Shown here: piece by piece, positions 3,246 to 60,111 of the stretch
Numbering within the stretch: position 1 is the first letter of the stretch
Layout of the letters: each line of letters starts with the position of its first letter
Assembly: GCF_041521385.1 (NCBI RefSeq)
Contig: NZ_CP168006.1
Coordinates: 868,001-932,000 of the forward strand
Length of the DNA: 64,000 nucleotides
Reading direction: 5' to 3'
Origin: Alcaligenes faecalis
Lineage (GTDB): Bacteria; Pseudomonadota; Gammaproteobacteria; Burkholderiales; Burkholderiaceae_B
Made by a program: the position numbers and the translations under genes
The notes under the pieces: model-generated
The model's database searches: none
What the model saw: the letters and a program-made list of their open reading frames with translations, nothing else
What the model was told of the DNA's origin: nothing

Positions 3246-3490
3246 TAGAAAAGCGGAGAAAAGAAGAAATCTATACAGCTCAGATCCATCTACCAAAAAC
3301 AACCAACATACGACTCTGTTCTATCTTCGCCTTTCATCATCCCAGGCTGGACACCCAACACATCAGGCTCCTCCTTGCATGCTCAGTCACTTAAATGGAC
3401 TCAGACCGTTTGATCCCACCCGAACTGGCCCAATACCCCCCACATCCGACCCAGCCAGGCAAAGACAAAGCATCCACAACCAGCTCAGAG

Positions 3491-3546
3491 CCAAAGCCAA
3501 AGCCAAAGCCAAAGCCAAAGCCAAAGCCAAAGCCAAAGCCAAAGCC
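3491..3546 (+). repeat. Hexanucleotide tandem tract, nine units of CCAAAG
   Basis: Nine uninterrupted copies of CCAAAG plus CC. It lies in the gene-free stretch 3246-3589, which otherwise shows nothing recognisable, and ends about 44 bases before hairpin repeat copy A. Translation of one frame gives an Ala-Lys run, but no credible gene contains it. Being a hexamer, slippage would not shift a frame. Confidence 0.95.
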
Positions 3547-3589
3547 ATCAAAATCGTAAACACAGAGGGGCTCTGTTTTCTTTCAATAA

Positions 3590-3820
3590 GCCATTCACGT
3601 TCGCCCCGTGGCTGAGCGGCGAGTCAGAGTTCTTGCCGCGGGCGATGGCGGGATACGGGGTGCAAGCGCCCTTCTGTTCGCGCCCGACGCTTGTGATGTG
3701 TCCGGGGGACACATCACCGGGCAAGTTAAGGGCGCGCCCGTATCCTGCCATTGCCAAGGGGACCGACGCGCAGCGTCGGCAAGGACTCAGCCGCTCAGCC
3801 ACGGGGCGAACGTGAATGGC
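3590..3820 (+). repeat. Long structured hairpin repeat, copy A
   Basis: A 231-bp element whose 31-bp outer arms (3590-3620 and 3790-3820) are exact inverted repeats. Inside are four further paired segments: CTTGCC/GGCAAG, ATGGCGGGATAC/GTATCCTGCCAT, GCGCCCTT/AAGGGCGC and the apical GATGTGTCC/GGACACATC, plus a side hairpin GACGC-gca-GCGTC. The conserved linkers CGACGCTTGTG, CCGGGGGAC and CCGACGCGCAG-type 3' segment are shared with copies B, C and D, while the arms are not. It lies between the convergent 3' ends of the amidase and MocR genes. Complementarity continues weakly outward to about 3567 and 3845. Confidence 0.9.
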
Positions 3821-3878
3821 GTCTTTCAAAACGAGCCCCCCCTGCTCCAACCCGAAGCACGTCAAACAGCGCAACCTC

Positions 3879-47542: not shown

Positions 47543-47618
47543 GTCTGCTTTTTGTAAGTGGGGTTTCATAGAGAGTGAAATCAGTCTTTGAATGATGAGA
47601 TCGGTCTCAGTGAAACCA

Positions 47619-47845
47619 CCACTTGGGGCCCTCTACAGGGATTGGGCTGAGCACTTGCCGGTGCTTCGCACCGGTGCCCTTGTCAGGAGATAGCTACGGG
47701 CGCATCCTGAACTCCCGGGGTGGTTCGTCCCCCGGACGAACCACAAGCGCCCCGGTCAAACAACAGGGTGCTTGCATCCCTACGCTATCTCCTGACCGCG
47801 GCAAGTACTCTGATCCGCCCAATCCCTGCAGAGGGCCCCAAGTGG
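47619..47845 (-). repeat. Long structured hairpin repeat, copy B
   Basis: A 227-bp copy, opposite in orientation to A, C and D. The 29-bp arms (47619-47647, 47817-47845) are inverted repeats with one mismatch. Read on the minus strand, the inner helices are AGGAGATAGC/GCTATCTCCT, GCACCCTG/CAGGATGC, CCGGGG/CCCCGG, apical GGTTCGTCC/GGACGAACC, and a side hairpin GGTGC-gaa-GCACC. These differ from the other copies in both strands of each helix. Linkers such as CGCTTGTGG and GACAAGGGCACC are unchanged. Confidence 0.9.
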
Positions 47846-48245
47846 TTCACAGTGATGCATATCCACGACTCAAGCCGGTTTGCTTCCAAGATCCAGGTGC
47901 TGCATAGACAGATCCAATGCCTGGATCTCCATTTTTAAGCAGCAACCCTCAAAGCCCCCTCTAAAAGCCCCTGGTTTACAAGTTCTCGCTACAGATTGAT
48001 GCCAATCATCAGTGTGTGAGTACTGCGAGCACGTTGATCATCAGTAATGTTTACTTTTGGGCTTTTTCAACTAGCCTCACTGCGCTCAACCGCAGTGCCT
48101 CTTCAATCCATCTCAACAACTTGGCCGACAACAAGCCGTAAGCCCACCAAGCGCCAAGCCAAGGAACACTAAAAAGCCCCCTGTCTCCTATACAACCAGC
48201 ACTTTCTCCCGCCACAAATCGGTTTTTTATATTTCTCCGTTGTGA
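47846..48245. other. Gene-free spacer between repeat copies B and C
   Basis: 400 bp without a credible gene. Short frames exist on the minus strand near 48050-48170, but they have no start signals and no motif I recognise. A degenerate gene remnant is possible but unsupported. Confidence 0.4.
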
Positions 48246-48478
48246 GCCGCTTGGGGGCCGGGTCCAGGGGGGTGGACGATTCAGACTGCTTGCCGCAGGC
48301 GATGTCTTGATACGGGAGGCAAGCACTCTGCTGTTTGAGCCCGACGCTTGTGGTTTGTCCGGGGGACAAACCACCGGGCGAGTTCAGAGTGCGCCCGTAT
48401 CAAGACATCGACAAGGGCACCGATGCGCAGCATCGGCAAGTAGTCAAGCCCACCCCCTGGACCCGGCCCCCAAGCGGC
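48246..48478 (+). repeat. Long structured hairpin repeat, copy C
   Basis: A 233-bp copy. The arms (48246-48275 and 48450-48478) pair over 29 bp with one bulged G. Inner helices are GACTGCTTGCC/GGCAAGTAGTC (one mismatch), ATGTCTTGATAC/GTATCAAGACAT, GCACTCTG/CAGAGTGC, GCCCG/CGGGC and the apical GGTTTGTCC/GGACAAACC, with side hairpin GATGC-gca-GCATC. It lies in the convergent region between the DMT and cytochrome genes, 400 bp from copy B and facing it. Confidence 0.92.
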
Positions 48479-57125: not shown

Positions 57126-57399
57126 AACCGGCCGTCCTTAATTCCCCGATGTGTCCAATAAGAGCAGCTTGAATCGGCTGCTCTATCTGGCTGATCTCTA
57201 CCTCCTGCTGTCCAGTTTCGGCCCCCTCTTTCGCCACCTTCGATCAAACCCGCGTCCGTAGTGACGTGATGACTTTAAAAACCCTCCTTCCGGACGGTTG
57301 TAAAGTCAGCCCGAGCAACAAGCCCCGAGCCCCACGACTCGAACAACAATCCGCAGGAACAAAGATCCCAGGCATGCCTCCTCAAACCGTTGAGAGCTG
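57126..57399. other. Gene-free stretch between murI and repeat copy D
   Basis: 274 bp. I see no gene, terminator with a T-run, or promoter that I can support. Confidence 0.4.
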
Positions 57400-57628
57400 C
57401 TCGGGGTGCTGGGACAAGGGGTGCGGGGCGAGTCAGACGACTTGCCGCAGGCGGAGTGGCGATCGGGGGTACAAGCGGCCTGCTGTGTGAGCCCGACGCT
57501 TGTGGTTTGTCCGGGGGACAAACCACCAGGCGAGTTCAGGCTGCGCCCCGATTGCCACTCTGACAAGGGCACCGACGCGCAGCGTCGGCAAGTGGTCCGC
57601 CCCGCACCCCTTGTCCCAGCACCCCGAG
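57400..57628 (+). repeat. Long structured hairpin repeat, copy D
   Basis: A 229-bp copy with perfect 31-bp arms (57400-57430, 57598-57628). Inner helices: ACTTGCC/GGCAAGT, GAGTGGCGATCGGGG/CCCCGATTGCCACTC with one G-U, GCGGCCTG/CAGGCTGC with one mismatch, and the apical GGTTTGTCC/GGACAAACC; side hairpin GACGC-gca-GCGTC. The arms share nothing with those of A, B or C. It is the only copy in this window that lies between two genes of the same direction. Confidence 0.92.
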
Positions 57629-58032
57629 TAGCGACCTACGAAGAATGCCCCAGGCGATCCTCTCCTCTGTTTCCCCATCCAGCCCCCGACCCTACGCCCC
57701 ACCTTCAACCCAAATCCAACAACAATTTTGAACCTAAAACATAAAAAACCGCTCAAAACCCACCGCCCTCCTCCCCCCGTAACAAACCAGACATCCACCC
57801 GCCACATCCCCGCCAAGCCGCAGCCCGCCGCCACTCTCCCCCCACCCCATCCCCCCGGAACCAGCCCTTCACATAAAACACAATCCAATCATCGGCGGAT
57901 TTGCTGATCCGTTCACAGGGCAGTCACACGCCCTTCCTACACTGCCCGCAGTCCTGATCCGATGCCGACTGAGCCGCCCACCCCCACGCACAGTCTGGCC
58001 TCTCTTTTTACCTTCTCTCCACGAGTGGCTGT
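57629..58032. other. Cytosine-rich gene-free stretch before the lipoprotein operon
   Basis: 404 bp with marked C over G excess on the plus strand. It probably contains the promoter of the 58033 gene, but I cannot place it. Open frames on the minus strand have no supporting signals. Confidence 0.4.
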
Positions 58033-60111
58033 ATGACCTTCACCTCCCGCCCCCAAAAATCTCACACCGTGCAGCGCCTGCAACAAGCCGGACTCTCCCT
58101 GTCCCTGGCCCTGCTCTTGACCGCCTGCGGCAGCGGTTCCAATGGCAGCGATGGTCCGGCTAACCCCGGCACCCATCCCGAACCTCCTACCGTAGAACCT
58201 GGCGACAAACCCCAGGCGCTGGGCGGCAAAAAAGCCCTGATCGTCACCATCGACGGCCTGAGCTACGAAGCCCTGCTGCAAGCCCGCCAGGCTGGCAAGC
58301 ACCCTGCCCTGAAAGACCTGACCATCGCCCCCGCCCAAACCGGCGGCTATACCGGCACCCCCAGCGAACAACGCACCCTGCCACTGCCTGGCTGGGCCTC
58401 GCTAATTACCGGCGTCTGGGCAGACCAGCACGGGCTGCGCGGTGTCGGCCAGGAAGACGCCAAACTCACTAGCCCCACCTTGGTCGCTCAGACCGCCGAG
58501 CCAACCCAGGCCGCCCTGTCCTTGAGCACCGCCGACTACCGCACACTGTGGAGCCAGGACCTGCAAGAAGGCCGCATCATCGAAGCGGCCAACTGTACCG
58601 ACTCCGACAGTTGTGTCAGCGAGCAAACACAACAGTACCTGCAAGAAGGCAAGTCCCTGATCCTGGCCCAAATCCAGGCCCCTGCTCGTGCCGCAACCCA
58701 AGGTGGTCTGGGCAGCCCCGCCTACCAAGAAGCAGTTAACGATTCCCTGGCATCACTAGACAAACTGTTCGCCCTGATTGACAAACGCCAACAGGCTGAC
58801 GCCTCGGAAGACTGGTTGGTCATTCTGACCACCAGCTATGGTCTGGACGAGTTTGGTGGCACAACAGGCTCGCAATTTAACCGCAACAAAACCAGTTTTA
58901 TTGCTACCAATAAACCCCTGGCCTCCTTACCCGCCGCCGACAGCCAAGTCTCCAGCACCACCAACATGAACACCCTGGCGGCTGTCATCGACATTGCCCC
59001 CACCGTGCTGTCCCACCTGGGCGTCCAAAGCGAACAATACCGCTTCCGTGGCTCGCCACTGCAAGCTGACACTCGCGTGCGCAACGTCTCCTTCAGCAAG
59101 CCAGACGACAAAAACATAGTGGACCTGAAATGGGTGCTGGATGGTGACGCCTCGCAGGAAATCCAGGTCATGCGCGACGGCAAGCTGATCGCTACCCTGC
59201 CTGCAGGCACAACACAATACTCCGACCCCTTGCCCTCGTCGGACACCGAGCAAATCTACTCGCTCTACTACTCGATCCAAACAGGCAAGGCAGCATCCAC
59301 CCTGAAAGCAGAAGTGGGTTACAAGCCCCCACCGAAACTGGCTGACACCCTGAAAAATGGCCTGCAAAGCTACTACACCTTCAGCGCCCAACCGTTTACC
59401 GACAGCAAAGGTGGCAGCACGCTGCAAACCTCGACCCCTGCGGTACCCGCCGGTCAGTTGATTGCCGCCGACTTCCTGGATCCCAGCACAGACAAGGGTG
59501 GTCTGCGCATCATGGGCAGCAATGTCGATGGCAACGGCAACCGTGGCTACCGCCTGTCCATGAGCCGCAACCTGTTCACGCTGAGCAGCGTGCAGCAAAT
59601 GACGATTGGCTTTTGGCTGCGCACGCCCAACAACTGCCACGGCTACGGCGCCTCCATCATGGCGAACAAAAACTACGACTCCGGCAACAACCCCGGTTTT
59701 GCATTGGGTCTGTTCAATGCCAACGGTTGCGACATCCGCTTTAACACGGGCTATGGTGGCGGCCGCAACGAGAGCAGAGGCTACAACATCACCCCCGACG
59801 AATGGGCCTATGTGGCTGTCGTCATCGACAAAGCCCAAGGCAAGATGCTGGGCCACGTATTTGACCCCAAAAAAGGGGCGCAGTTTGGCTCGGTGGCTCT
59901 GGAAGCCCGTGCCCTTCAAGCTCTGGGTGGCACCGGCACGAGCGAACTGGGCCTGAACGAAGACGTTACCGGCCAGTACTACAAACGCTGGGGACGCAGC
60001 GACATCAATATGGACTTTGGTGAGCTGGCCATGTGGGACCGCGCCCTGAGCACGGACGAGCTGACCAGTATTTACGAATCGCGCCAACCTCTGTCCAGCC
60101 TCCAACCCTGA
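58033..60111 (+). CDS. Lipoprotein with alkaline-phosphatase-like and LamG-like domains
   Basis: 692 residues. The signal peptide ends in a lipobox, LLLTACGSG (Cys about 34). Residues ~65-340 resemble the alkaline phosphatase/phosphodiesterase superfamily: LIVTIDGLSYEAL and the nucleophile region LPGWASLITGVWADQHGLRG. However, the second metal site, normally TSDHG, reads TTSYGLDEFGG, so activity is doubtful. Residues ~450-690 form a LamG/concanavalin-like domain (MTIGFWLRTPNN, GELAMWDRALSTDEL). It heads a set of three exported proteins ending with phospholipase C. Confidence 0.8.
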   Translation: MTFTSRPQKSHTVQRLQQAGLSLSLALLLTACGSGSNGSDGPANPGTHPEPPTVEPGDKPQALGGKKALIVTIDGLSYEALLQARQAGKHPALKDLTIAPAQTGGYTGTPSEQRTLPLPGWASLITGVWADQHGLRGVGQEDAKLTSPTLVAQTAEPTQAALSLSTADYRTLWSQDLQEGRIIEAANCTDSDSCVSEQTQQYLQEGKSLILAQIQAPARAATQGGLGSPAYQEAVNDSLASLDKLFALIDKRQQADASEDWLVILTTSYGLDEFGGTTGSQFNRNKTSFIATNKPLASLPAADSQVSSTTNMNTLAAVIDIAPTVLSHLGVQSEQYRFRGSPLQADTRVRNVSFSKPDDKNIVDLKWVLDGDASQEIQVMRDGKLIATLPAGTTQYSDPLPSSDTEQIYSLYYSIQTGKAASTLKAEVGYKPPPKLADTLKNGLQSYYTFSAQPFTDSKGGSTLQTSTPAVPAGQLIAADFLDPSTDKGGLRIMGSNVDGNGNRGYRLSMSRNLFTLSSVQQMTIGFWLRTPNNCHGYGASIMANKNYDSGNNPGFALGLFNANGCDIRFNTGYGGGRNESRGYNITPDEWAYVAVVIDKAQGKMLGHVFDPKKGAQFGSVALEARALQALGGTGTSELGLNEDVTGQYYKRWGRSDINMDFGELAMWDRALSTDELTSIYESRQPLSSLQP

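Follow-up and report, generated by a model that had tools for sequence, protein, structure and literature searches.

Most interspersed palindromic repeats are short or lack internal features. REP/REPIN repeats are mobilised by RAYT (Y1) transposases, and the interior of a MITE is usually featureless. The GTAG/CGTC-tagged REP/REPIN repeats are described, in the accessible part of the source, as gene-less and intergenic, located between unidirectional or convergent genes and occurring mostly as head-to-head dimers (PMC3733652). BRE (Beta-proteobacterial repeat element), a Bordetella repeat described in 2011, is 75-91 bp long with 69% G+C according to the accessible part of its description, is represented by 8-22 copies in four Bordetella genomes and by up to 29 elsewhere, is usually intergenic and occurs in the Alcaligenaceae and Comamonadaceae, the copies being often in tandem with few bases between them (PMC3110155). 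The same part of the paper reports two transcripts, bprJ1 and bprJ2, that overlap BRE (PMC3110155). A candidate RNA termed 'Burkholderiales-1' is listed as undeposited and rated as ambiguous as an RNA in the table entry available for it (PMC2864571).

The window analysed here, the whole stretch of 64,000 nucleotides of Alcaligenes faecalis DNA, holds a repeat family of four interspersed copies (A-D) of about 235 bases each. The repeat is best read as an unusual variant of an already known kind of repeat. We consider it, with a probability of about 0.5, to be a REPIN/MITE-like, non-autonomous structured selfish repeat whose folded strand, either RNA or single-stranded DNA, is under selection. 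Such a repeat would be of the mobile type and yet carry, on one strand and regardless of the neighbouring genes, a fold as elaborate as that of a non-coding RNA in 74 of 399 genomes sampled from the order. The dozens of copies present in some genomes make testable the old question of whether the fold serves the repeat or the host.

Copies in the window, their fold and covariation

An earlier note on this DNA had claimed four copies in given orientations, and all four are present; the ends given there for C are right, while those of A, B and D are a few bases off. The copies are listed below, together with the matches obtained with R2, the broader of two models used in the searches.

3585-3825, + strand: copy A, single element with arms at about 3585-3620 and 3790-3825; R2 match 3619-3793, 141.6 bits
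47618-47846, - strand: copy B, left member of the head-to-head pair, arms at about 47618-47653 and 47811-47846; R2 match 47644-47818, 145.2 bits
47847-48245, no strand assigned: spacer between B and C, faced by the 5' ends of both
48246-48478, + strand: copy C, right member of the pair with B; R2 match 48276-48450, 156.5 bits
57396-57632, + strand: copy D, single element with arms at about 57396-57430 and 57598-57632; R2 match 57428-57602, 143.6 bits

Each copy is predicted to fold into a rod with an energy of -160 to -178 kcal/mol, and the folding z-scores are -14.8 (A), -13.2 (B), -13.5 (C) and -13.4 (D), none of the 200 shuffles of any copy being as stable. Outermost in the rod are arms of about 30 bp or more, followed by an asymmetric loop and a basal helix; the middle consists of a three-way junction with a 7-bp hairpin, a long inner helix, an AUGCAAG-like bulge and an 8-bp helix; and the tip is made of an internal loop (CTGTTTGAG opposite GCGAGTT), a short helix, the bulge GACGCTTG and an apical helix with a short closing loop. 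The core comprises 177 positions and seven helices, and the unpaired loops rank among the best-conserved parts of the element. The parts of copy C, all on the + strand, are as follows.

48246-48273, +: 5' outer arm, a copy-specific sequence that pairs with 48451-48478 in the fold
48300-48316, +: long inner helix (helix 3), 5' side, pairing with 48394-48410; double changes in 13 of 16 pairs
48323-48330, +: helix 4, 5' side, pairing with 48385-48392
48331-48339, +: internal-loop strand CTGTTTGAG, conserved in the alignments
48350-48360, +: apical helix, 5' side, pairing with 48364-48374
48364-48374, +: apical helix, 3' side, from the covariation alignment
48378-48384, +: opposite loop strand GCGAGTT, conserved in the alignments
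48385-48392, +: helix 4, 3' side, from the covariation alignment
48394-48410, +: long inner helix, 3' side, from the covariation alignment
48420-48436, +: side hairpin CCGATGC-GCA-GCATCGG, from the covariation alignment
48451-48478, +: 3' outer arm, followed by GTC, from the fold

The helix variants named in the earlier note are all found: the apical helix is GATGTGTCC/GGACACATC in A, GGTTTGTCC/GGACAAACC in C and D and GGTTCGTCC/GGACGAACC in B, the side hairpin occurs in three versions, and the inner helix GCGCCCTT/AAGGGCGC of A stands against GCACTCTG/CAGAGTGC in C. The linkers said to be common to the copies are so with the exception of GACAAGGGCACC, which is found in B, C and D, whereas A has GCCAAGGGGACC. 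The outer arms are wholly different between the copies; self-complementarity amounts to 92-97% in the arms of A, B and D, and those of C pair with each other in the predicted fold. Outer-arm stems were aligned for a non-redundant set of 125 arms (94 from the genus and 31 distant) drawn from 167 distinct cores, 42 of which were left out as the stem alignment was too far out or too short or the arm was a duplicate. The aligned stems have a mean of 45 pairs with 89% identity in the genus arms and 34 pairs with 91% identity in the distant arms. Visual inspection shows the arm ends to be conserved in many copies, with GAGC at the 5' side and GGCGTCTT at the 3' side. An origin of the outer arms as an inverted copy of the insertion site was rejected on account of these conserved arm-end bases and because the arms stay with the element in orthologs. 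A pseudoknot between the CAAGC and GCUUG bulges was likewise rejected, the two being complementary in Alcaligenes and uncompensated in several distant copies (by eye).

The compensatory change that had been noticed among the four copies persists in the genus alignment A2 (MAFFT, 32 cores), where 97.1% of 1888 cells pair, double changes occur at 41 of 59 pairs and 351 cells are doubly changed (compensatory) against 97 in shuffles, with none of 500 shuffles reaching 351. These figures are not probabilities, as the alignment itself supplied the structure and contains related sequences. With slid structures, the paired cells fall to 34-42%. At locus C, the genomes G000, G007 and G008 carry one set of inner helices and G002, G003 and G006 another; the two sets differ in three helices at once, both arms together, with the loops unchanged. 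Judging from the sequences, this looks like an exchange of the helix block with another copy, so that the copies are not independent witnesses and the counts of compensatory changes overstate the number of events. Single compensatory changes were also found within each locus-C group and in the outer arms of locus D. A caution follows for similar studies, as large covariation counts among paralogous repeats can arise partly from block exchange.

Corresponding places in related genomes were also compared. Visual inspection reveals no copy A at the corresponding place in A. pakistanensis, and an element with very different arms at that place in A. faecalis AU14, which may be a replacement or a new insertion. 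An apparently empty B/C site in G009 was rejected as such, B and C being fused there by a deletion at the side hairpins; the pair has collapsed into a fusion of the two 3' ends. The best named matches of the protein encoded next to copy A are in Alcaligenes. Copy D adjoins a 692-aa ORF with a LamG-like domain (PF13385) at 58033-60111 of the window. Short tandem repeats adjoin several elements, for example the CAAAGC units at 3486-3551 of the window and those in the flanks of L006, L014, L015, L051, L053 and L054, and AAGAACC after the 3' arm recurs in tandem in some other genera; both observations were made by eye and may reflect chance.

Distribution, pairing and mobility

Further copies, for which the earlier note had proposed a search of related genomes, are numerous. 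The own genome has 35 matching stretches by BLAST, a count in which some interrupted copies appear as two halves and one stretch is the self-match on the opposite strand, and at least 27 model matches among the 150 of 1461 candidates that were scored. Within the genus, nine of ten genomes carry copies, with 14 to 81 matches each (81 in G004), and G005 has none. In the family, 70 of 268 genomes and 23 of 43 genera are represented, with at most ten candidates scored per genome. The genus model R1 matched 4 of 399 genomes of the order at E 0.001. The broader model R2, built from 33 copies of which 28 are of other genera, matched 74 of the 399 sampled genomes, in 39 of 159 genera and about two dozen families, with E up to 0.01 and six candidates scored per genome, about 4 of the 399 being expected to match by chance at E 0.01. 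In a control of 500,588 bases (55 of 68 control loci, mostly Pseudomonas), R2 gave one match, of 21.5 bits, which is below the listed order-level matches. Plasmids and phages searched with copy C gave no match.

Among the 50 matches found in 29 loci at the order level, 37 have both loop motifs, as have 79 of 5000 shuffled sequences; this enrichment is partly by construction because R2 itself contains the motifs. TGTYTGAG and GCGAGTT are the best-conserved columns in an alignment of 28 of the 50 matches, which were picked mainly for these motifs. The 13 matches that do not carry both motifs include many from one subfamily (L343, L346, L349 and L359, for example), which may be a different repeat. 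Five same-orientation copies of the subfamily without the usual loop motifs stand in tandem in L349 (302-2397), with start spacings of 363-776 bases. A second hairpin, like GTTACTTTCTTTGGCGAAGCAAAGAAAGTAAC, was seen by eye downstream of many copies outside the family (such as those in L337, L344 and L352); none was noticed in the Alcaligenes copies.

Two peculiarities of individual copies were observed in G000. A divergent pair is present three times, each exactly 45,250 bp from the next (G000:C1 3023230, 3068480 and 3113730, loci L021-L023 with the partners L016, L018 and L019), which suggests a 45-kb segment in three tandem copies. The copies in L025, L028, L029 and L030 are interrupted in their apical part (by eye). 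The L030 insert (about 1.4 kb) codes for a transposase of the IS110 family (PF02371, PF01548), and an IS110 element thus seems to use the loop of the element as a target.

B and C form a head-to-head pair, and this arrangement is common. G004, with its 81 matches, has 26 neighbours that start within 1 kb of each other, 25 of them (-,+), one (+,+) and none (+,-). The 29 order-level loci, three of them of the same family, have 19 close neighbours, of which 12 are (-,+), five (+,+), one (+,-) and one (-,-); four of the five (+,+) cases sit in the tandem array of L349.

The pair in G004 looks like a jumping element. The unit measures about 733 bp, contains no gene and is delimited by GGTTCTTCGARRAATTYCGGGGA-like sequences that occur in both orientations, and the pattern of these terminal inverted repeats, with up to 3 mismatches, occurs at 38 sites against 0 in a reversed control. 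The mean target-duplication score over 41 loci, whose ends were set by an automatic end finder with several loci mis-bounded or deleted, is 2.46 against 0.93 for permuted (mismatched) flanks, and none of 1000 permutations scored as high; seven loci score 7 or more, where 1.5 are expected and no permutation has more than five. The unit length is 732-736 bp in 8 of the 41 loci, the rest differing through deletions or false ends, and a run of four A or T is present at the junction in 34 of the 41, a raw count. Target duplications are clear at L166, L168, L175 and L179. In G004, two convergent ORFs flank the L179 site, which is free of the element in all eight congeners where the two flanks could be located next to each other, R1 giving no match in those loci. 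The orthologous gap in these eight measures 86-297 bases and contains a terminator-like hairpin (by eye), and the exact empty junction is unalignable; the right flank of L179 was searched for in G005 and was not found. The evidence from terminal inverted repeats and target duplications covers G004 only, that is, one Alcaligenes species and the paired form. The earlier note had named a match to a mobile element as evidence against its reading; the inverted ends and target duplications supply such a match for the paired form in G004, from which, and not from copies A-D, this evidence comes.

Candidates for the mobilising machinery were also considered. An ISL3 transposase, guessed from the G004 ends, was rejected since it is absent from G004, G008 and G003 and has one copy in G000. 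The seven core-less sites with terminal inverted repeats in G004 were rejected as autonomous copies, being partial matches to the unit only that look like deletion remnants, and ten of the ORFs beside these sites have no transposase domain. In G220, which belongs to another genus, ten cores are instead bordered on at least one side by GTAG-tagged hairpins like RAYT-linked REPs (by eye), because of which no single transposition route fits all carriers.

Strand asymmetry, genomic location and possible explanations

Wherever one strand has a G.U wobble, the opposite strand has an A.C clash, and the two strands can therefore be told apart. In the cores, G.U exceeds A.C by 108 to 15 in the genus (A2), or by 82 to 15 when one U.G pair occurring in 26 of 32 rows is excluded, by 72 to 6 in the distant set (A5) and by 136 to 39 at the order level (A7, all 50 matches including those without the loop motifs). 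The 125 non-redundant outer arms, aligned by match and mismatch only with no preference for G.U, provide the cleanest strand test because A5 and A7 were model-aligned and the model favours G.U; they contain 162 G.U against 93 A.C in the genus and 35 against 17 outside it, in total 197 against 110 (p about 8e-7). That G.U prevails in the genus, in other genera and across the order thus indicates that one strand is the folded one, although a strand-biased mutation tied to the orientation of the element could mimic it. Selection on a folded RNA or single-stranded DNA, as proposed earlier, is partly supported by the fold, the covariation and the G.U excess, with the qualification that the copies are not independent witnesses. 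RNA and single-stranded DNA fit the data equally.

The genomic location was resolved for 91 of the 167 copies (45 that lack a resolved neighbour to one side and 31 separated from a neighbour by more than 700 bases were excluded). Of these 91, 54 have convergent, 34 codirectional and 3 divergent genes around them, the genes being long ORFs called by a script and the orthologous copies being included, so that the counts are not independent. A bias of this kind towards 3' ends would be expected if the element inserted close to terminators or were purged from promoters. Relative to codirectional neighbours, the element is in sense orientation in 15 cases and antisense in 19, a near-even orientation that speaks against a plain role in 3' untranslated regions and suggests that the selected strand belongs to the element and not to a host gene. 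A common neighbour gene was rejected, as none occurs in 20 distant loci or in the 29 order-level loci. In the largest neighbour cluster of the former (9 loci), the members tested are ABC-transporter ATPases, which lie at differing distances; in the latter, the larger clusters are made up of ORFs that overlap the element itself, with one further pair of loci.

The preferred reading would account for these observations as follows. A selfish unit, often a head-to-head pair, would use borrowed transposition machinery to spread into stretches without genes, close to where genes end (3'). One strand of each unit would fold into the rod, with its outer arm, three-way junction with the short hairpin, inner and apical helices and conserved loops, and selection would act on this folded strand, which could be a transcript or else single-stranded DNA encountered by a transposase or host protein. 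The fold, being tied to the orientation of the element and not to that of its neighbours, would therefore serve the spread or retention of the element rather than a neighbouring gene, possibly by taking part in transposition, by shielding a strand during replication or transcription, or by binding a host factor. A more general and doubtful extension would make the repeat one of an order-level class of structured selfish elements that share a conserved folded strand (UGUYUGAG opposite GCGAGUU, plus the side hairpin), are commonly head-to-head and ride different transposition systems in different genera, with inverted-repeat ends and target duplications in one Alcaligenes and REP-like hairpins in another genus, the fold as RNA being constant and the transposition ends exchangeable.

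A host function is also compatible with the retention of orthologous copies, C for example being present at the same locus in six genomes. The element could then be a putative transcript, alone or in the 3' ends of mRNAs, that stabilises, terminates or binds a protein, its copies having spread once and then been kept. The strand-specific fold with conserved loops and the 54 of 91 copies between convergent genes against 3 between divergent ones agree with such a role, as do, in the accessible part of the BRE paper, the bprJ1 and bprJ2 transcripts overlapping a possible relative (PMC3110155). It is nevertheless rather unlikely in view of the nearly even orientation to codirectional genes (15 against 19), a copy number that ranges from 0 (G005) to 81 (G004) inside one genus, and the want of a common neighbour gene. 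We regard as improbable a long-palindrome artefact of DNA, in which template switching and gene conversion would keep the arms complementary without selection on the fold. The outer arms, which differ between copies and are yet nearly perfect, the replacement of the inner helices as a block at locus C and the B/C fusion deletion in G009, a case of palindrome instability, are consistent with it; but such a process is blind to the strand, whereas G.U exceeds A.C weakly in the arms and strongly in the cores, and template switching would erase the unpaired loops, which are among the best-conserved parts.

Compatible with the selfish repeat and with the other readings is the possibility, held tentatively and doubted more than believed, that the apical part of about 85 bp is BRE, in which case the element would be the reported family at full length. 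The length of 75-91 bp given for BRE in the accessible part of its description is similar to that of the apical part (PMC3110155), and the order-level search reaches many families. Against the identity, BRE copies are described there as often in tandem with few bases between them (PMC3110155), and the surroundings of lexA (1.5 kb in 22 genomes, perhaps of species other than those of the paper) contain no repeat of the BRE period and no R1 match above 14 bits.

Comparison with known repeats and RNAs

Rfam 15, the comparison proposed in the earlier note, has 0 matches over the window. In searches of L001, L188, L087 and L163 down to E 5, nothing over the element came near the cut-off (RT-15 with 19.9 bits against 82 in L163), and the 3 matches in 18 order-level loci are all outside the elements. 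One sRNA-Xcc1 (RF02221, 59.7 bits) lies in L338 at 2756-2849, about 200 bases from the element and not over it; its proximity may be a coincidence or reflect a shared hot spot. In the accessible literature searched, no paired element of 235 nt of such a build was found. The earlier remark that no named family with this layout was known agrees with the Rfam searches and is otherwise uncertain, BRE (PMC3110155) and Burkholderiales-1 (PMC2864571) being candidates by the partial descriptions available. Burkholderiales-1, compared by its table entry alone, shares with the element the order in which it occurs.

BRE, compared by the accessible description only, resembles the element in taxa, copy number, G+C content and the length of the apical part, and differs in being described as a repeat of about 90 bp, often in tandem, with no paired fold of 235 nt. 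The unit of G004, and of that genome only, shares with MITEs the terminal inverted repeats, the target duplications, about 25 close pairs and the remnants of internal deletions, whereas its interior is filled by two conserved structured units. With REP/REPIN repeats, the element shares an intergenic position, a convergent or codirectional setting, a prevalence of head-to-head dimers and the lack of a gene of its own. GCGTC follows the 3' arm in many Alcaligenes copies (by eye), its first bases lying in the stem. REPs are 20-40 bp long and form one hairpin, while the element described here has about 235 nt, a junction, several helices and conserved loops.
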